From an uncultured bacterium (GTDB lineage Bacteria; Armatimonadota; UBA5829): a DNA stretch of 64,000 nt. The DNA lies in contig CALJES010000008.1 of NCBI GenBank assembly GCA_938074205.1, positions 62,001 through 126,000 on the forward strand. Direction: 5' to 3'. The notes beneath the pieces are model-generated. The model was not told where the DNA came from, did not search any database, and was given only the letters and a program-made list of their open reading frames with translations. Below are positions 53,522 to 63,655 of the stretch, piece after piece; the stretch's first letter is position 1; each line of letters opens with the position of its first letter. The position numbers and the translations under genes are program-made.

Positions 53522-54307
53522 CTAGCTTCTGCCTACCAGCCGATACATTGACCCCAACGGAATGTGCACTGCCCTGATGCCCAAGTTGTTCTCGATGTAC
53601 TCTGCGAGCTTCTTGAGGCCGGGCTCTTCTGCGATAGTATGAGTAACAAGCACCAACGGCAAGCTCTTGTCTAATACCCACGAGCCCTCTGCCCAAAAGT
53701 GCATTCCGTCGTCCGTACCGATGATGACATCAGCACCCATTTGAACCATTTTGCGGTAATCGGTGCCCGCTCCACAGCCTATGCCGACTCTTGTTATTTT
53801 TGCGTCCGGGTCGCCAATCACTTCGACGCCGTCTTGGCCAAGAGGCTTAGTCTTCTCCAATACGTATTCCGCCAGCTCCCGAAGTGTCGAGACAGGTGCC
53901 GGATGAACCGCTTCCATAGCGTTCCCGGCTGATTGGCCTGTCAGGCTTAGATGGGCAGCCCAGGCGTCAACGATACCAATGCGAGGCACCCGATCCCATA
54001 CATCGTGACAGCGAAATACAACCAATCCGTGCTCCTCACAAAAGCGGCGTTTGTTTGCTTCGTAAGGCTGAACTTCACCTTTTCTGGCCAGTTGGGGCTC
54101 CGGGTACTCGAACTGCTCGTGTGTAATGAAGACATTGCAGCCCAGCGAGTGAGCTTTCCTGAGGGCATCTAGCCTGGCCTGCCAAGCAACCGCCACAGCT
54201 TTGATCTCGGTATTTGGGTCACCAATCTGAAAGTGATCCGTAGTAGCGTTCCAGTTGACCCATGTGCCCATTTTTCGAAAATGATCGTACAGTTCTTGAG
54301 CCGTCAT
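53522..54307 (-). CDS. NIF3/DUF34-family dinuclear-metal protein (copy 1)
   Basis: 261 residues. Family marks are VFITHEQFEYPEP near residue 60 (metal His and Glu), VVFRCHDVWDR near 97, VGIGCGAGTDYRKMVQMGAD near 175, and LVLVTHTIAEEPGLKKLAEY near 220, where the second metal His and Glu sit. NIF3 proteins bind two metal ions and are sometimes labelled GTP cyclohydrolase I type 2; their real reaction is poorly defined. This is the last gene of a leftward cluster, 6 nt after a sulfatase. A paralogue lies two genes upstream. Because no signal is visible, it is cytoplasmic. It may act on a product of the sulfatase and glycosidase pathway. Confidence 0.88.
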   Translation of the reverse strand: MTAQELYDHFRKMGTWVNWNATTDHFQIGDPNTEIKAVAVAWQARLDALRKAHSLGCNVFITHEQFEYPEPQLARKGEVQPYEANKRRFCEEHGLVVFRCHDVWDRVPRIGIVDAWAAHLSLTGQSAGNAMEAVHPAPVSTLRELAEYVLEKTKPLGQDGVEVIGDPDAKITRVGIGCGAGTDYRKMVQMGADVIIGTDDGMHFWAEGSWVLDKSLPLVLVTHTIAEEPGLKKLAEYIENNLGIRAVHIPLGSMYRLVGRS

Positions 54308-54313
54308 ATGACC

Positions 54314-55726
54314 TCACCAATCCACGTTATTGACCAATAGAGTGCCTGCTTTTCGGCAACGCACAACCCAATTATCGTAGTTCTCGCCCGGCGAAGGATT
54401 CTGCGGATTGGGTACGTGCGCTTCCTGAAACACCTTCTCCGCTCGGCTGACTACATCGGACTTATCAGTTGACAAATCTCGCTCTTGCAAGGGATCCTCT
54501 TCGGCGTTGTAAACTTCGATGCGGCTTGACGGATTCGGCCTGTAAACCCACCAAGGACCTAAACGCGCCGCTTGTTGGTTACCGAACTCCCAGTAGAAGT
54601 AATCGTGCTGCCGTTGCTCAGTTTCGCACCCGAAAAGAGTCGGAACGATTGATATACCGTCGCACCTTGCCGGTATGCTCGCGTTGGCAATTTCAACTGC
54701 TGTCGGCAGAAAGTCCCAGAAAGCCCATGGTTGATTACTCACTACGCCTGCCTCTATTCGACCGGGCCACCACGCTATTGCTGGAACCCGGACTCCGCCC
54801 TGATAGAGATTTCCCTTTTCACCCCTAAAGGGTCCTCTATGATGAAACACCTCATCCAGTGACGGATTCTTGGCTGCGCCGCCAACGCTGTAGCCATTAT
54901 CCGTAGTAAAGAATACCAGTGTGTCCTGCTCGAGCTCGAGTTCTCTAAGCACCTTCAACAGATTGCCTATGGCCGCATCCATACGCGTAATCATAGCCGC
55001 ATATACGCGATGGACGAGAGGCCAGGGTTTATCCTTGTACTCGCCAAGCTCCGGAACCTCGTGCACACCGTGCGGGATTGTATAGGCGAGATACAAGAAG
55101 AATGGTCGGTGCGCGTTCCTGCGCACGAAGTCAAGAGATTTTTCTGCATATAGGTCAAACGAATACTTCGGGTGGGGTCCTGCACAACCGTTTGGTATAA
55201 TTTGGCCGAACTGGTCGTATTCATTAGGCTTCAGGTGATCGTGCCCAAAGTTATCCGGAATCTCTACCTTCTCATAGTTGTGGTATAGGAATGGGGGGTA
55301 GTAGTTGTGAGCATGGCGTTGGTTCAGGTAACCGAAGAACTCATCAAACCCTTTGTTGTTCGGCAGACCAGGCTGCCCAGGCACGGATAATCCCCACTTG
55401 CCGAATACCCCTGTAGCATAGCCGGCATCGCGTAGAACCTGTGCGACCGTTACGTCTGCCTCGGTCAGACAGGGTCTGTATAAGCCTCCCTCAAATCGGA
55501 CCATGTTGTCACGAACACTCGCGTGACCCGTGTGCAAACCTTGCATTAAGCAAGACCGAGAAGGTGCACAAACAGTAGAGCCGCTGTAGCAGCTTGTGAA
55601 CCTCATACCTTCTGCAGCCAGCCGGTCAATGTTGGGAGTCAATATGAGCTTCTGTCCATAACAGCCCAGATCGCCCCAGCTGAGATCGTCTGCCATGATC
55701 CAGATGATGTTCGGCTTCCGAGTCAT
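54314..55726 (-). CDS. Sulfatase without signal peptide
   Basis: 470 residues. It begins MTRKPNIIWIMADDLSWGDL with metal-binding Asp residues, and the modification site TVCAPSRSCLMQG holds the Cys that becomes formylglycine. Further motifs are ATGVFGKWGLSVPG with the conserved Lys, FFLYLAYTIPHG and VFFTTDNGYSVGG with metal Asp and Asn. Sulfatases release sulfate from esters on sugars or small molecules. No signal peptide is visible, so it is likely cytoplasmic, like the NIF3 proteins on each side. It overlaps the upstream NIF3 gene by 4 nt and is followed after 6 nt by the second NIF3 gene. The maturation enzyme that makes formylglycine is not in the window. Confidence 0.93.
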   Translation of the reverse strand: MTRKPNIIWIMADDLSWGDLGCYGQKLILTPNIDRLAAEGMRFTSCYSGSTVCAPSRSCLMQGLHTGHASVRDNMVRFEGGLYRPCLTEADVTVAQVLRDAGYATGVFGKWGLSVPGQPGLPNNKGFDEFFGYLNQRHAHNYYPPFLYHNYEKVEIPDNFGHDHLKPNEYDQFGQIIPNGCAGPHPKYSFDLYAEKSLDFVRRNAHRPFFLYLAYTIPHGVHEVPELGEYKDKPWPLVHRVYAAMITRMDAAIGNLLKVLRELELEQDTLVFFTTDNGYSVGGAAKNPSLDEVFHHRGPFRGEKGNLYQGGVRVPAIAWWPGRIEAGVVSNQPWAFWDFLPTAVEIANASIPARCDGISIVPTLFGCETEQRQHDYFYWEFGNQQAARLGPWWVYRPNPSSRIEVYNAEEDPLQERDLSTDKSDVVSRAEKVFQEAHVPNPQNPSPGENYDNWVVRCRKAGTLLVNNVDW

Positions 55727-56505
55727 TTCACCACTCTATACATGCAACCTTGGGGTATGAACTCTGTCTTGACTGGCATGAATTGCTCAGCGATATACGC
55801 TGCCAGGTTTCGCAAACCCGGTTCCTCAGACGAAGCGTGATTCACAATTATGAGCGGCGTGCCTGTTTCAAGAGCCCAAGCACCTGTGTACCAATATCGC
55901 GTGCCGTCATCCGTGCCGATAATTACGTCGGCGCCAAGATCGATCATATCCCGTACTCGTATGATTGCACCGCAACCTATTCCCACCTTGGATACTGCCT
56001 TTTCTGGATCTCCCACCATTTCGACCCAGGGCTGGCCTACGTACTCCGTTGCCGCTGCCACGTGTTTGGCAAGCTCTCCAAGCGTCCGAGCAGGCGACTC
56101 GTGAACAGCAGTAAACTGAGCCGACGCGACGCGACGCCCCAATCCCAAGAGTTTCGCCCAAGAGTCCACGATGCCTATCTCGGGCATCTGGTCCCAAACA
56201 TCGTGACATCGATATATGACTAGACCGTTATCGAGAATAAACAGTTTTTTCGCCGCTGCCTGTGGGTCTGAGAAGATAGAGTCCGAGTCCTCTCTGTGGC
56301 GATAAAATGTCGGCTCGTGGGTAACAAACAGATTGCACCCGCGCTTGACAGCTTCTTTGAGTGCGTCTGTGCGCGACTGCCAAGCTACTGCAATGCCGGT
56401 GACTTCCGTCCCGGGATCCCCAATGATGAACCGATCAACAGTGTTCTCCCAGTCCACCCATGTGCCTATCTTTTTCATATGATTGTGCAGGTCGATAGCT
56501 TTCAC
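55723..56505 (-). CDS. NIF3/DUF34-family dinuclear-metal protein (copy 2)
   Basis: 260 residues and clearly related to the copy at 53.5 kb. Both start with HxxKMGTWV or HMKKIGTWVDW and share metal sites: LFVTHEPTFYRHRED near residue 60, VIYRCHDVWDQMPEIGIVDS near 97, VGIGCGAI near 175 and LIIVNHASSEEPGLRNLAAY near 220. The copies differ mainly in the loop after the THE motif. Overlaps of 4 nt with the sulfatase (55723-55726) and with the glycosidase (56502-56505) show tight translational coupling. Two divergent paralogues kept within one cluster suggest separate roles, or a heteromeric complex. It is cytoplasmic by appearance. Confidence 0.88.
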   Translation of the reverse strand: MKAIDLHNHMKKIGTWVDWENTVDRFIIGDPGTEVTGIAVAWQSRTDALKEAVKRGCNLFVTHEPTFYRHREDSDSIFSDPQAAAKKLFILDNGLVIYRCHDVWDQMPEIGIVDSWAKLLGLGRRVASAQFTAVHESPARTLGELAKHVAAATEYVGQPWVEMVGDPEKAVSKVGIGCGAIIRVRDMIDLGADVIIGTDDGTRYWYTGAWALETGTPLIIVNHASSEEPGLRNLAAYIAEQFMPVKTEFIPQGCMYRVVK

Positions 56506-57857
56506 TGAGCACCTCCGCTAACATATAAGACCCAGTCATCAGTCGCTGTCGGCTTCGTAAATGAGACCAGCTCACCACCGCCGACGTGCTTCGTCAACAT
56601 CCATTCTCCACTCCTCGGATCATAAATGCGTGCAATCGCATTATCACGAAGCGCTTTCAGATCCAAAGCGACGGTGTTGTCACTCAGAACATATACCACG
56701 TACTCCTTACCAGGGTTCGCAAGACACGAGTTGACATCGGAGTTGCTGACCAGCTCGTGATGCGGCGTGGCTTCCCAAAAATGCATTCCGGACTCTCTGA
56801 TGAAACGTAGAAGCTTGCCGTAGTACTCTCGTATGTTCGGGTCTACTCCACGACGCCAATAACCTCCGAACCCGCCCCAACCGGCTGCTCCTCCGACAAA
56901 GGAGTACCATGCAGCTCTGCGCAAGTCATCTGCACTTGCCGTCATGAGTTTCGAACCGTCAGGATCAAGCCAAAACGGCACACCTTTGCCCACATTCTTT
57001 TCCAGAATTCGCTTGACGTCCGCAGGCGTATTGGGTCCGTGATCAGAAAAACCGTCCGCATTCAGGGCAAGCCTACCGCCGTTTTGAGTGATAGCTTTCC
57101 GCGTGCGAGACTTCACATAATCTATCACTGCCTCGTTCCAGCAACTGTCCGACCCCAGAAGCTCGTTCCCAACTTCGAAAAATACGTTGTCGAAATCCTT
57201 GGTGAACTGTATGGCACGGTCTACGATGCGGCGTTGGTACATTCCCACGCCTCGGTTGTTTAGGAACTCATCAACTCTATAGAACTCTCCAGACTCGTCC
57301 GCGTTGCCATCGCGGTTGAGGTCCAGATCGCCGTAGAAGTTTCGCACCTGATTCTTAAGGTTCCAATAAGAATTGATCCAACGGTGCTGCTCATTGCCTC
57401 CTCTGATATCTACACCATCAAACAAGCACACATGCAAGTACACACCACATTGCTTCGCCAGTCTCGCGTGATACCTCAGCCCGTTCCAGAAACGGTCATC
57501 CCACTTGTCGAGATCGACTTTGCCGTTGACATAGCGAAAAGGTACCGGAGTCGGATTTCGCTCCCAATACTGAGTGCCCTTGCCGCCGAGGGCATTGATT
57601 CCAAGGCTAAGGCGCAAGTAGTTCAAACCATACTTAGCACCTTCAATAATCATATCAATATAGCGTTGCGGCGAATCGTTATAGTATCCGGGAGCCACTG
57701 ATGCCCAACAGTACGCACCCACAAAGAAAAACGGTTTGCCGGATCCGTCCTGAAAATATCGTCGAGAAGAGTGGACAGTAATGTCACCTGAACTACAGGA
57801 CTCCTGAAATACGACCGCGCACACTCCGGTAATAACGATCATTAGAATCAAGCGCAC
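56502..57857 (-). CDS. Secreted TIM-barrel glycosidase with C-terminal beta-sandwich
   Basis: 451 residues. A signal peptide (MRLILMIVITGVCAVVFQES, with a Cys near residue 21 that may be lipidated) starts it. The TIM barrel covers about 35-360, with FFVGAYCWASVAPGYYNDSP, YGLNYLRLSLGIN and VYLHVCLFDGVD. The likely acid/base Glu sits in VFFEVGNELLG near residue 235, as in clan GH-A. The second Glu is less clear. A small beta-sandwich (about 375-451: VVYVLSDNTVALDLKAL, ARIYDPRSGEWML) resembles the putative collagen-binding domain of DUF4038/GH140-like enzymes. It would cut a polysaccharide backbone or side chain outside the cytoplasm. It overlaps NIF3 copy 2 by 4 nt, and the upstream gene ends 20 nt before it. 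Confidence 0.85.
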   Translation of the reverse strand: MRLILMIVITGVCAVVFQESCSSGDITVHSSRRYFQDGSGKPFFFVGAYCWASVAPGYYNDSPQRYIDMIIEGAKYGLNYLRLSLGINALGGKGTQYWERNPTPVPFRYVNGKVDLDKWDDRFWNGLRYHARLAKQCGVYLHVCLFDGVDIRGGNEQHRWINSYWNLKNQVRNFYGDLDLNRDGNADESGEFYRVDEFLNNRGVGMYQRRIVDRAIQFTKDFDNVFFEVGNELLGSDSCWNEAVIDYVKSRTRKAITQNGGRLALNADGFSDHGPNTPADVKRILEKNVGKGVPFWLDPDGSKLMTASADDLRRAAWYSFVGGAAGWGGFGGYWRRGVDPNIREYYGKLLRFIRESGMHFWEATPHHELVSNSDVNSCLANPGKEYVVYVLSDNTVALDLKALRDNAIARIYDPRSGEWMLTKHVGGGELVSFTKPTATDDWVLYVSGGAQ

Positions 57858-57877
57858 TTTTCACAGCCTCCCAAGCA

Positions 57878-59206
57878 TCAAAACGGAGCATCGGACCCGC
57901 CGATATGGGCACCACCAGGTAGGTTCGACACAAAAGTCTCCGCGATGTGCCTCAACTCAGCCACTATATGCGGGTAATCTTCTGCTTGGTCTACGCATTC
58001 CCTGATGTCGAGCTGCAGGTTGTAGAGCTCGGGTTTGGGTAGTGTTTGGTTATCGCGACCGAGGTGCAGTTTCCATCTCCCCAACCGTACTGCTTGCAAG
58101 GCATTGGTGACGAAATAGAAGAACGGTTTGTCGGGCAGACGTGCACCAGGCATCGTCAACAGTTTACTTATGTCGCGGCCGTCAATGACCCTGTCTGAGG
58201 CTACCCTGCCACCCGCCAGAGCAACCAGTGTTGGAAAGAGATCAAGGTTAGTCGCCTGCTGATGGCAGACAATGCCCGCCGGAATAAGACCGGGGCAGTA
58301 GGCAACAAACGGCACTCTTACGCCACCCTCGAAGACCTGCCCTTTCTTTCCGCGCAGTATCCCGGCCGACCCTAAATTGGGCCCGTTGTCGCTGGTGAAC
58401 ATAACCACCGTATTACGCTCCAACCCAAGTTCGCGCAACACGTCGACTATCTGACCTACCCCCCAATCAATGCATTCCACCGCGTCACCATATAGACCGC
58501 CTTTAGACTTGCCCCGAAACCTTTCGGAAGCCGATACCGGATTGTGTGGCATGTTGTGGGCTAGATACACGAAGAAAGGCTTGTTCTTGTTTCGTCGTAT
58601 GAACTGTACCGCTTCAGACGTATATCTTTCCGTCAAAGTCTCTTGGACAGCAGGTTGCTCGATGATTTCTTCGTTGCGCATCAGAGGACAGTTGGGCCTG
58701 CCATCCACTCTGTCCCCCATATTGTTCGAATAAGGTATGCCAAAATAATAGTCAAAACCATGGCGCGTCGGCAGGTATTGAGGAAGGTGTCCAAGATGCC
58801 ACTTGCCGACAAGTGCGGTTGCATATCCGAGGCTCTTTAGCATTTCAGCTATAGTTTGTTCATCTTCCGGTATGCCTGTGGTGTTCACGGGACCCAACAC
58901 TCTGGTTAGTCCAGAACGAATCGCATAGCGACCAGTAAGTAATCCCGTCCTGGAGGGCGTGCAGACCGGCGCACACGTGTCGAAGTCGGTGAACTTAACC
59001 CCTCCGGCAGCCAGTCGATCGACATTGGGCGTTCGAATCGTGGGAGAGCCGTAGCATGAAAGGTCGCCGTAGCCGAGATCATCGCAGTTTATAAGAACGA
59101 AGTTTAGCCGCCGCGACGAGCGATTTGCAGCGAGTGTTGAATGAGCCACAAGAACGCTCGCGAGGGCTCCTCGCAGGAAAGTTCTTCTGCTTATCAAAAT
59201 ATCCAC
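57878..59206 (-). CDS. Secreted sulfatase with Tat-type signal
   Basis: 442 residues. The N-terminus ISRRTFLRGALASVLVAHST is a twin-arginine signal, so the enzyme is exported folded. The metal Asp pair is in NFVLINCDDLGYGDLSCYG, the formylglycine site in VCTPSRTGLLTGR, the Lys motif in ALVGKWHLGHLPQYLP, the His in FFVYLAHNMPHNP and the later metal site in MFTSDNGPNLGS. This is a type I (S1) sulfatase with all key residues. It probably removes sulfate from extracellular polysaccharide, in contrast to the two signal-less sulfatases of the cluster. It starts 44 nt after the next sulfatase gene upstream and is followed by the glycosidase after 20 nt. Confidence 0.94.
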   Translation of the reverse strand: MDILISRRTFLRGALASVLVAHSTLAANRSSRRLNFVLINCDDLGYGDLSCYGSPTIRTPNVDRLAAGGVKFTDFDTCAPVCTPSRTGLLTGRYAIRSGLTRVLGPVNTTGIPEDEQTIAEMLKSLGYATALVGKWHLGHLPQYLPTRHGFDYYFGIPYSNNMGDRVDGRPNCPLMRNEEIIEQPAVQETLTERYTSEAVQFIRRNKNKPFFVYLAHNMPHNPVSASERFRGKSKGGLYGDAVECIDWGVGQIVDVLRELGLERNTVVMFTSDNGPNLGSAGILRGKKGQVFEGGVRVPFVAYCPGLIPAGIVCHQQATNLDLFPTLVALAGGRVASDRVIDGRDISKLLTMPGARLPDKPFFYFVTNALQAVRLGRWKLHLGRDNQTLPKPELYNLQLDIRECVDQAEDYPHIVAELRHIAETFVSNLPGGAHIGGSDAPF

Positions 59207-59250
59207 GAAGGCTACTCCCCTCTCTCAAAATGAAATGGCAGGACACGTAT

Positions 59251-60624
59251 CTACTTTCCCGATTTGGCCGCTTTTCTTTCCGCCAGTACCGCGTCGAAAG
59301 GATCCCCCTGCCAGTGGGGTTTGGATTTTTGCTCTTCGAGCCACTGATTCATCCAATAGTCTCTGCATTCGCACACGATATCTTCACGCTGGCGCGCGAT
59401 GTTGGTTGTTTGGTACGGATCTTTAACCATGTCATAGAGCTCGATTTCTTCAATGGGATAACCGATATTGTCGAACGTTTGGATGAACAAGTGGGTCTTG
59501 GTTCGAACGGCTCTCTGCACAGTATAAAGCGCGTGTCCCCACACTAAACGGTCGCGTTCCTTTTTTGCAGGCTCGCCACGGAGCTGAGGTGCGAACGAGA
59601 TGCCGTCCCAATCTTCAGGTATCTCGGCGCCCAAGAGCTCACATAATGTTGGGCTGAGATCAATGTTGTATAGCATAGAACTGCACCGTGTCCCTGCTTT
59701 GGTAACACCCGGCCACTTGATGATAAGCGGAATGTGATGAATGCACTCATCGGCATTCACGTGATCGGAATATATGCCGTGCTCACCGAACGCATCGCCG
59801 TGGTCGGAGGTAATGATGACTGCGGTCTCGTCCAGCAGTCCACGATCCGCCAGATAGTTCAATACGATTCCTACGTGGTAATCGACATAGGCGATCGCTG
59901 CGTCGTAGCCGGTTACCATGCGCTCAAAGTCTTTGCGGGACCGTATAGCATCGGGCATCAGCGGTACTGGACTTTTCCCGTTTACAAACTGTGCCAGTGC
60001 TGTAAAGGGCCCCTTTATCTCCTGGTGCCGACGTATTGCGTCCTCATCGGGCCAGGGTTGGGTGACGGGATAGTGTTTGAAACGATCAGCCCAAGACGCT
60101 TCCATCTTGTATACGCGATGGGTGTCCCAGTAGTTTATGTGGAGAATATAGTTGTCACGATCAGCACTGTGGCCCAACCAACGCATCAACGGCTCGTGGA
60201 TTTCAGGAGCTACCTCCCCTCCCGCCTTGAGATTTGGTGTATGGAACTCTGCCCACCCGCACTCGAACCAGAACATATTGTGGCGGTCGGCAAAGTTCGA
60301 AAAGCTCACCGGATATGCGTTCACCCTGCGAAGCCTGCGCATTAACATCTCGTTATCAGGCTGAGGTCCGCCGTAATTCCGCGTTCGGATATAGAACTTC
60401 GCCCCAGCTCCAACGTTCGAGACTACACCGTTCCTAACGCCGAAGCGGCCGGAAGACCAATTCATTCGCGACGGCAGACAAGGCGAGTCAGCGCAGTAGT
60501 ACCGGTCAAAGACAACGCCTTGCTTTGCCACTGCATCTATGTTGGGCGAGGTTGGACGATTGTAACCGTAGCAACCGAGATGATCCGGGCGCAAACAATC
60601 TATGTCGAAGACAACTATTCTCAT
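59251..60624 (-). CDS. Sulfatase without signal peptide (first gene of the cluster)
   Basis: 457 residues. It begins MRIVVFDIDCLRPDHLGCYG with the metal Asp residues. The formylglycine site is in SPCLPSRMNWSSGRF. Other motifs are FWFECGWAEFHTP, NYILHINYWDTHRVY with the metal-site and substrate residues, and VIITSDHGDAFGEHGIYSDH. The N-terminus has no signal peptide, so this enzyme should be cytoplasmic. It resembles choline-sulfatase-like or heparan-type S1 enzymes, but the subfamily is not certain. It is the first gene of a leftward cluster of six that ends at 53.5 kb. It is divergent from the aroA-like gene, with the promoters between them. Confidence 0.93.
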   Translation of the reverse strand: MRIVVFDIDCLRPDHLGCYGYNRPTSPNIDAVAKQGVVFDRYYCADSPCLPSRMNWSSGRFGVRNGVVSNVGAGAKFYIRTRNYGGPQPDNEMLMRRLRRVNAYPVSFSNFADRHNMFWFECGWAEFHTPNLKAGGEVAPEIHEPLMRWLGHSADRDNYILHINYWDTHRVYKMEASWADRFKHYPVTQPWPDEDAIRRHQEIKGPFTALAQFVNGKSPVPLMPDAIRSRKDFERMVTGYDAAIAYVDYHVGIVLNYLADRGLLDETAVIITSDHGDAFGEHGIYSDHVNADECIHHIPLIIKWPGVTKAGTRCSSMLYNIDLSPTLCELLGAEIPEDWDGISFAPQLRGEPAKKERDRLVWGHALYTVQRAVRTKTHLFIQTFDNIGYPIEEIELYDMVKDPYQTTNIARQREDIVCECRDYWMNQWLEEQKSKPHWQGDPFDAVLAERKAAKSGK

Positions 60625-60928: not shown

Positions 60929-62203
60929 ATGAGATTCGTCGTTCGAAAGTCCAAACTGCAGGGCAGCGTTCGGATTCCCGGATCCAAATCTCACACCATA
61001 AGAGCAGTCGCTATCGCGGCGCTGGCTGAAGGCACGTCTCGCATTCGCAATCCTCTCATAGCAGAAGACACGCTCGCTGCGGTGCATGCCTATCGGCTTT
61101 TCGGCTCTGACATAGCTTGCAGCGAAGATTGTTGGGTAGTCGGCGGGGTGTCAGGGCAGCCCTGCACTCCGGAAAACGTAATTGACGTCGGCAACTCCGG
61201 TACCACGCTTTACATAGCGACCGGCAGCGCTGCGCTTGTGGCAGGAACGACCGTCCTAACGGGCGACGATCAAATACGAAGACGCCCTGCGGGCCCTCTG
61301 ATCCGCACCATTAACCAGTTGGGAGCCGCTGCTGAATCTACTCGCGGCAACGACAAACCGCCAATTGTAGTTCGCGGCCCGATGCACGGTGGCACCGCCG
61401 AGTTGGACGGCAGTCAGACGTCGCAATACTTGACTAGCCTTCTGATAAACTGCCCCCTCGTGGCGCAAGACACTGTGCTGAAGGTCTACAATCTCGTCGA
61501 GAAACCATACATCGATATGACGCTCTCCTGGTTGGCGGAGCAAAACATACACGTAGACAGAAGCGGTTACGAAGAGTTTCGCATCCGCGGAGGACAGAAG
61601 TACTTAGCGTTCGACAAGCAAATCCCTGCCGACTTCAGCTCGGCCACCTTCTTTCTGTGCGCCGCAGCTATAACCGGTTCTGAACTGACACTACTTGGTC
61701 TGGATCCGAAAGACACCCAGGGCGACAAGCGAGTAGTCGAAACGATAGCTAAGATGGGAGCGCAGGTTGAATGGCTTGAAGATGGACTGCGCGTCAAGGG
61801 CGGGGATCTCGCCGGCGGAGCTTTTGATCTCAGCGATACGCCCGATGCTTTGCCGGCTCTTGCTGTTACTGCGTGCTTTGCTGAGGGTGAAACGCGGCTG
61901 GTGAACGTTGGCCAAGCCAGGTTGAAGGAGACCGACCGTATCAGCGTTATGCGCAACGAGCTGTCCAAAATGGGAGCCGATATCGAAGAGCTGCCAGACG
62001 GGTTAGTTGTGAGGCACAGTCGACTTCAGGCGGCACATGTAGATGGCCATCGGGATCATCGAGTAGTTATGGCTCTTTCCTTGGCAGGTTTGGCTTGTGA
62101 AGGAGAAACAGTCATCGAGGGCGCCGAGGCGGTCGCGGTAACGTTTCCAACGTTCGCAGATTTGATGAGAAGCGTCGGCGGAGAAGTGGGGATTGAGGAG
62201 TAA
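60929..62203 (+). CDS. aroA: EPSP synthase (3-phosphoshikimate 1-carboxyvinyltransferase)-like, divergent
   Basis: 424 residues, whole EPSP-synthase fold from PGSKSHTIRAVAIAALAEG to VTFPTFADLMRSVG. The family transfers enolpyruvyl from PEP to shikimate-3-phosphate. Kept residues include Lys and Arg in SKSHTIR, RRRPAGPL, TSQYLTSLLI, DTPDALPAL (catalytic Asp), ARLKETDRIS and DHRVVMALSL. Changed residues are more telling. The near-invariant Arg after NSGTT-(M) (R100 of E. coli) is Tyr (NSGTTLYIATG). The phosphate-binding Ser before PY (S197) is Glu (VEKPYIDMT). Either this is a working shikimate enzyme of an odd lineage or it uses another acceptor. The aroC-like gene follows after 114 nt. Confidence 0.85.
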   Translation: MRFVVRKSKLQGSVRIPGSKSHTIRAVAIAALAEGTSRIRNPLIAEDTLAAVHAYRLFGSDIACSEDCWVVGGVSGQPCTPENVIDVGNSGTTLYIATGSAALVAGTTVLTGDDQIRRRPAGPLIRTINQLGAAAESTRGNDKPPIVVRGPMHGGTAELDGSQTSQYLTSLLINCPLVAQDTVLKVYNLVEKPYIDMTLSWLAEQNIHVDRSGYEEFRIRGGQKYLAFDKQIPADFSSATFFLCAAAITGSELTLLGLDPKDTQGDKRVVETIAKMGAQVEWLEDGLRVKGGDLAGGAFDLSDTPDALPALAVTACFAEGETRLVNVGQARLKETDRISVMRNELSKMGADIEELPDGLVVRHSRLQAAHVDGHRDHRVVMALSLAGLACEGETVIEGAEAVAVTFPTFADLMRSVGGEVGIEE

Positions 62204-62225
62204 CTGGCAATACCAGCCTCCGGGT

Positions 62226-62292
62226 ATCAGCTTCCGACTGTTGGCTGCTAAGGCTGACAGCCGTAAGCTGATGACGAACCGTCAGAAGCTGA
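62226..62292 (+). promoter_or_regulatory. Nested repeats in the aroA-aroC spacer, possible attenuator
   Basis: ATCAGCTT (62226-62233) pairs with AAGCTGAT (62265-62272) around a nested GGCTG/CAGCC stem. The same 5' segment (TCAGCTTCCGAC, 62227-62238) can instead pair with GTCAGAAGCTGA (62281-62292) at 11 of 12 positions. The two helices cannot form together. The second lies just before the aroC ribosome site. Confidence 0.4.
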
Positions 62293-62317
62293 AAGCCAAA
62301 CAAGAGGAGGTATCCAA

Positions 62318-63655
62318 GTGATAGGCTGCCACTTTGGAAGAATGTTTCAGGTAACCGTCTCCGGAGGCTCATACCAGGACGGACTAACAACACTGATACA
62401 AGGTGTCCCGCCGGGAATGTACATCACAGAACAGGAAATTTACGGCGACTTGCTTCTTCGCAAGCCTGGTGCTGATGAGCTCTCCAGCCCGCGCAAAGAA
62501 CCAGATCTGCCCATAATATACACTGGGCTGAACTGTGCAGATACGGTCCCCGGAGCGGGTAATAAGTTGCAAACCAATGGTACGCCGCTGACTATACTAA
62601 TTCCCAACCTCGACCGCCACGACATCCACGTGAAGCAGTATCAAGACACCAACCGGACACCCAGGCCAGGGCATGCGTCATACGCATCCTTTCTGAAATA
62701 CGGTCCTGCAGATGATGCCATAGGTGCGGGGTTCTTTAGCGGGCGGTATACGGCAACAATCGTCGCAGCGGGTTATGTTGCCAAGAAAGTTCTACGCACG
62801 TGCGGGATCCGTGTTTTCTCCTATGTCCGCGAACTTGCTGGCGTGCGTTGTCCTGACGTGGACCACGAATCGGCCTACGCTTACACGGAATCCTACAAAC
62901 GCATGCGCAGGGATACAGATCCGTTTAATCAGGAGCTTTACGTCAAAGGGCGCCTTAACATGGAAATGCGCTTCTTGGAAAAAGCGAAAGTGTTTGCGGA
63001 AGTCGAGCAGCAAATCGATGAGATTCGCAGCAAAGCTCCACGCATCCCAGTCGAAAAGATTCGCGAGGAGTACGGAGTTCACGAGGTAATAAATTGTCCC
63101 AACATAGCTGCCGCGGACGAAATGATGGAAGCTACTCGACGTATCACTGAAACCGGGGATTCAGCAGGAGGAGTTGTTGAAGTTGTAGTTCTCGGGGTAC
63201 CGCCAGGCCTGGGAGAGCCAGTGTTTATGAAATTGGACGGAGAACTGGGCCAAATGCTCGGAATAGCATCCATTAAAGGTGTGGAGATTGGCGCTGGATT
63301 TGGCGTGAAAGATATGACCGGTTCGGAGTGCAACGACCAAATGCGTGCGGTAGACGGAAAAGTCGTATTCCTGTCTAATAATGCCGGCGGCATCACGGGC
63401 GGCTTGTCGACGGGTCAGCCGATCGTCGCTCGGGTCGCCGTAAAACCTACCCCGACCATAAATAAACCGCAAAAGACGATCGACAAGTATACGCTTCAGA
63501 ACGCCGAGCTTGCCGCAATCACAAGGCGAGATCCCACGATTGTGAATCGGGTCTGGCCAGTCTGCGAGAATTTCACAGCTCTGGTGCTTCTGGACATGCT
63601 AATGATTCACTACGGATACCAAGCCATTAAGGACAAAATCTGTGCTCAAGGGTGA
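62318..63655 (+). CDS. aroC: Chorismate synthase-like protein, divergent and long
   Basis: 445 residues, above the usual 360-400. The start is GTG 62318 behind GAGGAGGT. The fold is recognisable: FGRMFQVTVSGG, SSPRKEPDLPIIYTG, NGTPLTILIPNLDRHD, RPGHASYASFLKYG, TGDSAGGVVEVVVLGVPPGL, GVEIGAGFGVKDMTGSECND and NNAGGITGGLSTGQPIVARV. Chorismate synthase removes phosphate from EPSP with FMN. The normally invariant GESHG with an active-site His is GGSYQD here. The SxRETA motif reads SGRYTA. A charged, helical insert of roughly 55-60 residues lies before INCPNIAAADEMMEA. The second His (in RPGH) is kept. Together with the altered aroA partner this suggests a different substrate or a very diverged shikimate enzyme. 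Confidence 0.83.
   Translation: MIGCHFGRMFQVTVSGGSYQDGLTTLIQGVPPGMYITEQEIYGDLLLRKPGADELSSPRKEPDLPIIYTGLNCADTVPGAGNKLQTNGTPLTILIPNLDRHDIHVKQYQDTNRTPRPGHASYASFLKYGPADDAIGAGFFSGRYTATIVAAGYVAKKVLRTCGIRVFSYVRELAGVRCPDVDHESAYAYTESYKRMRRDTDPFNQELYVKGRLNMEMRFLEKAKVFAEVEQQIDEIRSKAPRIPVEKIREEYGVHEVINCPNIAAADEMMEATRRITETGDSAGGVVEVVVLGVPPGLGEPVFMKLDGELGQMLGIASIKGVEIGAGFGVKDMTGSECNDQMRAVDGKVVFLSNNAGGITGGLSTGQPIVARVAVKPTPTINKPQKTIDKYTLQNAELAAITRRDPTIVNRVWPVCENFTALVLLDMLMIHYGYQAIKDKICAQG

Follow-up and report, generated by a model that had tools for sequence, protein, structure and literature searches.

An EPSP synthase and chorismate synthase pair with altered 3-phosphate contacts as a candidate phosphate-free end of the shikimate pathway

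Textbooks and annotation tools regard the phosphorylation of shikimate as obligatory. Because C3 is a ketone when AroE works on it, the 3-OH can be activated only after the AroE step. Lys358, Arg105, and Ser206 of the tobacco EPSP synthase hold the 3-phosphate of S3P through their side chains (PMC12256929). The first conserved His of chorismate synthase adjoins the EPSP 3-phosphate and may protonate it on leaving (PMC7144000), and docking puts R129 and R354 (Paracoccidioides numbering) on the same phosphate (PMC11633415). Archaea have non-orthologous shikimate kinases, and further ones have been postulated (PMC3018139). The aroA-aroC pair described here, taken with the absence of AroK, points to an undescribed route to chorismate. 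No description of a phosphate-free route was found in the open-access literature that was searched.

The aroA-aroC pair and its genome

The window, i.e. the whole stretch of 64,000 nucleotides that was analyzed (contig C8, 62001-126000), belongs to a genome of 3.02 Mb that is 97.88% complete and probably comes from Armatimonadota. The pair has the following features, in window positions:

60929-62203, forward strand: aroA, an EPSP-synthase-family enolpyruvyl transferase of 424 aa, ATG start, intact
62318-63655, forward strand: aroC, a long Tyr-type FMN enzyme of 445 aa, GTG start after AGGAGG, intact
62363-62380, forward strand: GGSYQD in place of GESHG (AroC residues 16-21), Tyr19 replacing the His by the leaving 3-phosphate
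62531-62560, forward strand: 10-residue insert (AroC residues 72-81)
62732-62755, forward strand: FFSGRYTA in place of RSSARETA (AroC residues 139-146), with E. coli R125 and E130 replaced and R129 kept
62891-63079, forward strand: 63-residue insert (AroC residues 192-254), helical in the pLDDT-90 model

Three sulfatase-like genes (54314-60624) and two similar proteins of 260 residues (53522-54307 and 55723-56505) lie upstream of aroA, and more sulfatase-like genes are located beyond the window end (L008).

Both enzymes are complete in fold, as an earlier note on this DNA had claimed: the reading frames are intact, curated cut-offs are passed, and the models are confident. AroA matches the curated equivalog TIGR01356 over its full length (413.8 bits, cut-off 287), and its AlphaFold model has a pLDDT of 96.5. 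AroC scores 314 bits with TIGR00033 (cut-off 212) and stands slightly below the cut-off of NF003793 (319.4 against 321). Its model (pLDDT 90) reaches a TM-score of 0.81 on the chorismate synthase 1QXO, and its significant structure matches are solved chorismate synthases only.

Numbering follows the E. coli AroA and AroC sequences, used as rulers only. The alignment displays the Tyr at R100 and the Glu at S197 that had been reported for AroA, as well as Gln at N336. The catalytic and PEP-binding residues K22, R27, R124, Q171, D313, E341, R344, and R386 are kept, and so are S23, K340, and H385. The tobacco 3-phosphate ligands map by alignment to E. coli K340, R100, S197, and S170; two of the three side-chain ligands are replaced (R100 and S197), and K340 is kept.

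In AroC, the GGSYQD and SGRYTA changes noted earlier are likewise seen, the latter within the FFSGRYTA segment. The helical insert, previously put at about 55-60 residues, is present but measures 63 residues, and a second insert of 10 residues accompanies it. The site of the active-site His carries Tyr in 53 of 53 Tyr-type rows and His in all 32 others, and GGSYQ occurs in the 37 long AroC rows without exception. The FMN-side His106 and the catalytic Asp (RHDP) are kept and are invariant among Tyr-type rows. The EPSP-binding arginines R46, R103, R129, R354, and R362 (Paracoccidioides numbering; roles from PMC11633415) are also kept in all Tyr-type AroC. The changes go well beyond chance and are not random wear. 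Because of the ligand roles known for EPSP synthase (PMC12256929) and the position of the His (PMC7144000), the three most striking of them (AroA R100 and S197, and the AroC His) all concern the 3-phosphate.

A search for canonical aroA and aroC, as advised in the earlier note, found no second aroA or aroC in the 97.88%-complete genome. The second PF00275 (EPSP_synthase-family) protein is 23% identical and MurA-like. The genome includes an aroE of canonical score (TIGR00507, 293 bits) and a trp operon in which trpE (588 bits, cut-off 518) is followed by trpG, D, C, F, B, and A, the small genes having been identified by reading their sequences, with no profile scan. The genome further encodes a PabB/TrpE-like protein and a chorismate mutase-prephenate dehydratase (pheA). 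As aroE, the trp operon, and pheA are there, chorismate must be made and used, and the window's AroA and AroC are the sole visible route to it in this genome. The idea of a separate, new enolpyruvyl/elimination pathway is thus not supported, as the genome has no other aroA or aroC and does carry chorismate-using genes. The motif losses in both enzymes would suit a pair serving some other function, e.g. in a secondary-metabolite branch of a cell that imports aromatic precursors. Such a function is hardly credible, however, for sole copies found with aroE, trpEGDCFBA, and pheA, in a situation that recurs in dozens of other genomes.

Two forms of Tyr-type AroC and their AroA partners

Relatives of the query are encoded in 242 candidate stretches, of which 80 were kept. 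Relatives from the same family and class carry a short Tyr-type AroC with GESYG, RRDP, and an unchanged RASGRET. The long form is characterized by GGSYQ, FSGRYT, and both inserts. It occurs in the window's genus and in the Armatimonadota families f22, f38, and f39. Among named genomes, it is found chiefly in Phycisphaerae and Sedimentisphaerales, and also in Lentisphaerota, Omnitrophota, Hydrogenedentes, and others. One genome (G048) has two long Tyr-type AroC genes (L055:2653-4542 and L054:5085-6413), one of them in an open frame of 629 residues.

In a quick AroC tree, a branch with support 89 separates the Tyr-type rows from the others, and the long form constitutes a single inner clade (support 100), in which the window's AroC falls among long AroCs from Planctomycetota and other families. 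The AroA tree, built in the same quick way, places the window's AroA with its own family, among AroAs adjoining a short AroC. From these two trees, the long AroC has probably replaced a short one beside the resident aroA. R100Y and S197E are also found in relatives whose short AroC keeps GES and RET, so the AroA changes are not specific to the long AroC. Both observations speak against the simple co-evolution of the two partners suggested earlier.

All 51 AroAs that adjoin a long AroC in named genomes carry Glu197, as do all the Tyr-type Armatimonadota AroAs that were examined. Where a genome has His-type AroC only, position 197 of AroA is Ser or Arg, or lies in a different (SRDH-type) loop, and position 100 is always Arg. 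Loss of R100 is confined to Glu197 AroAs, 72 of which carry Arg (43), Tyr (13), Asn (12), His (3), or Pro (1) at this position. R100 was rejected as the key residue, since 43 of these 72 proteins keep it. The free tree suggests that Glu197 arose twice independently, but this was not retained either, as the AU test does not reject a single clade (p 0.6). The Glu197 AroA and the Tyr AroC may each have a single origin; the genomes carrying the pair are therefore not fully independent, and any association draws its strength from recurrent transfer or loss among families and phyla.

Shikimate kinase in genomes with Tyr-type AroC

No PF01202 match for a shikimate kinase was found in the window's genome, and no convincing shikimate kinase in two relatives of the same genus. 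Across 201 genomes of the phylum, which are related and many of which are metagenome assemblies, a convincing AroK is present in none of the 35 with Tyr-type AroC only versus 142 of the 146 with His-type AroC, the class being set by similarity to the window's AroC and motif-checked in 30 Tyr-type and about 20 His-type genomes. The scripted table gave 0/33 versus 142/148 (Fisher p 2e-30) before adjustment. Indeed, two of the six AroK-less His-type genomes (G127 and G132) fell just outside the similarity cut-off and were moved to the Tyr-type, the AroC motif of G127 being GESYG. At the family level, with family f1 split by genus g3, the count is 0/7 versus 31/31 (p 8e-8). Within the window's own family, genus g3 carries AroK and His-type AroC, and the other genera have neither. 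Two genomes of g3 (G066 and G170; L169 and L166) harbor an aroE-aroK fusion directly after aroC, unlike the rest of the family; in G066, AroA is located further downstream of the fusion.

Two strong PF01202 matches in Tyr-type genomes, G005 and G046, were considered as counter-examples and rejected, as their best model and motif are of the homoserine-kinase type. These SKI paralogues score 171-177 bits with the homoserine-kinase model (cut-off 197) and about 105 with the AroK models (cut-off 204), and they display GGSVVY in place of GGG. The assignment to homoserine kinase is a strong lead, not proof. Paralogues of this kind (GGSVVY or GGSAVY) are encoded at L191:6008-6508 (G005), L192:6113-6622 (G046), and L195-L202, and annotation based on PF01202 could label them shikimate kinase. 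The G005 gene comes after recO and deoC, near a trp-type gene. A shikimate kinase cut off by the end of contig C6, behind recO in the position that the SKI gene occupies in G005, was also considered and discarded, the remaining bases encoding an unrelated protein.

The same absence extends to other phyla, where 48 of 54 named genomes with a long AroC lack a shikimate-kinase candidate. Any PF01202 match is missing in 39 of the 54, including three finished chromosomes. Among the other 15, seven have only a GGSVVY/GGSAVY paralogue and two only a gluconokinase-like or P-loop-only match. Three (G207, G240, and G247) combine the long Tyr-type AroC with a further GESHG AroC that has an SKI-type domain fused to it or encoded next to it; a Glu197-type AroA occurs in G207 and G247. 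In Omnitrophota, G225 encodes an AroK homologue overlapping aroE (L204:1486-1989) in which the P-loop is missing (GFNGTWRREV for GxxGxGKS/T) and which appears to be a remnant or a repurposed domain. The kinase status of G216 is ambiguous, and in G222 a contig of 8.8 kb carries an AroK-like gene (L244:4508-8317), in one complete and one partial copy with further fragments interrupted by stop codons. Where a kinase is found, a His-type AroC usually accompanies it. A comparable arrangement was seen in G180 (Armatimonadota, L052), with both AroC types, an SKI gene beside the His-type one, and a Glu197-type AroA. The kinase domain of G207 (L209/L246), G240 (L205), G247 (L203/L245), and G180 is divergent, with no RPLL and with GGG altered in several.

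A shikimate kinase that is present but was missed, through assembly gaps or divergence too great for PF01202, is improbable. The PF01202 search did miss two control genomes, and ten Tyr-type genomes hold GGSVVY-type SKI paralogues whose best model is homoserine kinase below cut-off. However, the same search found diverged SKI domains of 85-100 bits in other genomes, and the absence is seen again in complete chromosomes as well as in the genomes of the window's genus. The archaeal GHMP shikimate kinase (TIGR01920) was rejected as a substitute, with no match over cut-off in the 30 genomes tested, and no kinase recurs among the neighboring genes as a companion of the aroA-aroC pair. Neither an SKI-type nor an archaeal GHMP-type shikimate kinase was found, and AroE is present. 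The complete pathway that would have made the pair a merely diverged shikimate lineage, as weighed in the earlier note, is not seen in this genome, where the AroK step was not found. What is directly observed is the anatomy of the genes, their changed residues, their presence as single copies, and their association with AroK loss across families and phyla.

A candidate route and its place among known systems

A changed substrate, as first proposed for the pair, is favored, although not for the reason then given but because the kinase and the ligands of its phosphate are missing together. The pair may run the last two steps to chorismate without a 3-phosphate, a reading judged slightly short of an even chance, in which the substrate, product, and leaving group are inferred. 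AroE would yield ordinary shikimate. AroA would move the enolpyruvyl group from PEP to the 5-OH of a shikimate with an unphosphorylated 3-OH, giving 5-enolpyruvylshikimate, and Glu197 would face this 3-OH. The Tyr-type AroC, with reduced FMN, would then remove the 3-substituent and the C6 hydrogen to give chorismate, the substituent leaving most simply as water and Tyr19 replacing His as proton donor. Shikimate kinase would thereby be without a role and be lost. The unphosphorylated substrate is favored because it explains both the loss of AroK that tracks AroA/AroC type and the changes in the phosphate ligands. EPSPS reacting with plain shikimate is reportedly on record (Priestman and others, 2005, cited in PMC3371024). 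More tentative is the broader proposal that such an end of the pathway, passing through 5-enolpyruvylshikimate and an FMN-dependent 1,4-dehydration, is widespread in Planctomycetota, Armatimonadota, and related lineages.

Several findings stand against the phosphate-free reading. Every Tyr-type AroC retains R129 and R354, the arginines that docking puts on the 3-phosphate; K340 is kept in AroA, and so is R100 in 43/72 Glu197 AroAs. Three genomes combine a Glu197-type AroA with an SKI-family kinase and a His-type AroC, adjacent in one of them, so Glu197 may tolerate S3P. It may be speculated that genomes with both systems place the phosphorylation step behind AroA rather than ahead of it. The elimination step is the harder part of the proposal to accept, since water leaves poorly. 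This poor leaving group and the invariant AroC arginines leave room for another kinase or another activating group.

The main rival is a kinase that belongs to neither the SKI nor the archaeal GHMP family, with S3P and EPSP still as intermediates and AroA and AroC merely diverged. This explanation is less probable yet well within reach: the main catalytic residues are all retained, as are R129 and R354 in AroC and K340 in AroA, both proteins exceed curated equivalog cut-offs, and the known and postulated non-orthologous kinases (PMC3018139) set a precedent. In the window's genome, aroE also has a pfkB-type kinase gene a few genes upstream. Such a kinase leaves unexplained, however, why AroK loss tracks AroA/AroC type and why the 3-phosphate ligands specifically are changed, and no kinase recurs beside the pair. 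Rather unlikely is a 3-OH bearing some other activating group (e.g. acyl, sulfate, or nucleotidyl) that is installed by another enzyme and accepted by AroA and AroC. A good leaving group would be retained and both the changed phosphate ligands and the kept AroC arginines would fit, but an extra enzyme is required and no candidate was found near the genes.

If the phosphate-free reading is true, a shorter form of the pathway exists, the group expelled by chorismate synthase need not be phosphate, and many genomes that are now marked as lacking AroK are complete. Glyphosate would also be predicted to have little effect on AroA, as the S3P complex is not formed. If another kinase fills the gap instead, an enzyme of core metabolism is still to be found in several phyla.

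Compared with EPSP synthase (TIGR01356, EC 2.5.1.19), the window's AroA shares the fold, the PEP-side and catalytic residues, and an equivalog score, whereas it differs by Glu at Ser197, common to the whole clade, and by its own Tyr at R100. AroC has in common with chorismate synthase (TIGR00033, EC 4.2.3.5) the fold, His106, the catalytic Asp, and five substrate arginines. It departs from it by the replacement of His by Tyr, of GES by GGS, and of R125 and E130, and by the inserts of 10 and 63 residues. Homoserine kinase of SKI descent (NF040667) explains most strong PF01202 matches in Tyr-type genomes, but the paralogues score just under its cut-off and none occurs in the window's genome. The archaeal pathway with its GHMP kinase (TIGR01920) shares the lack of an SKI-type AroK, whereas the 30 genomes of this set yielded no such kinase over cut-off and are distinguished from it in this respect.
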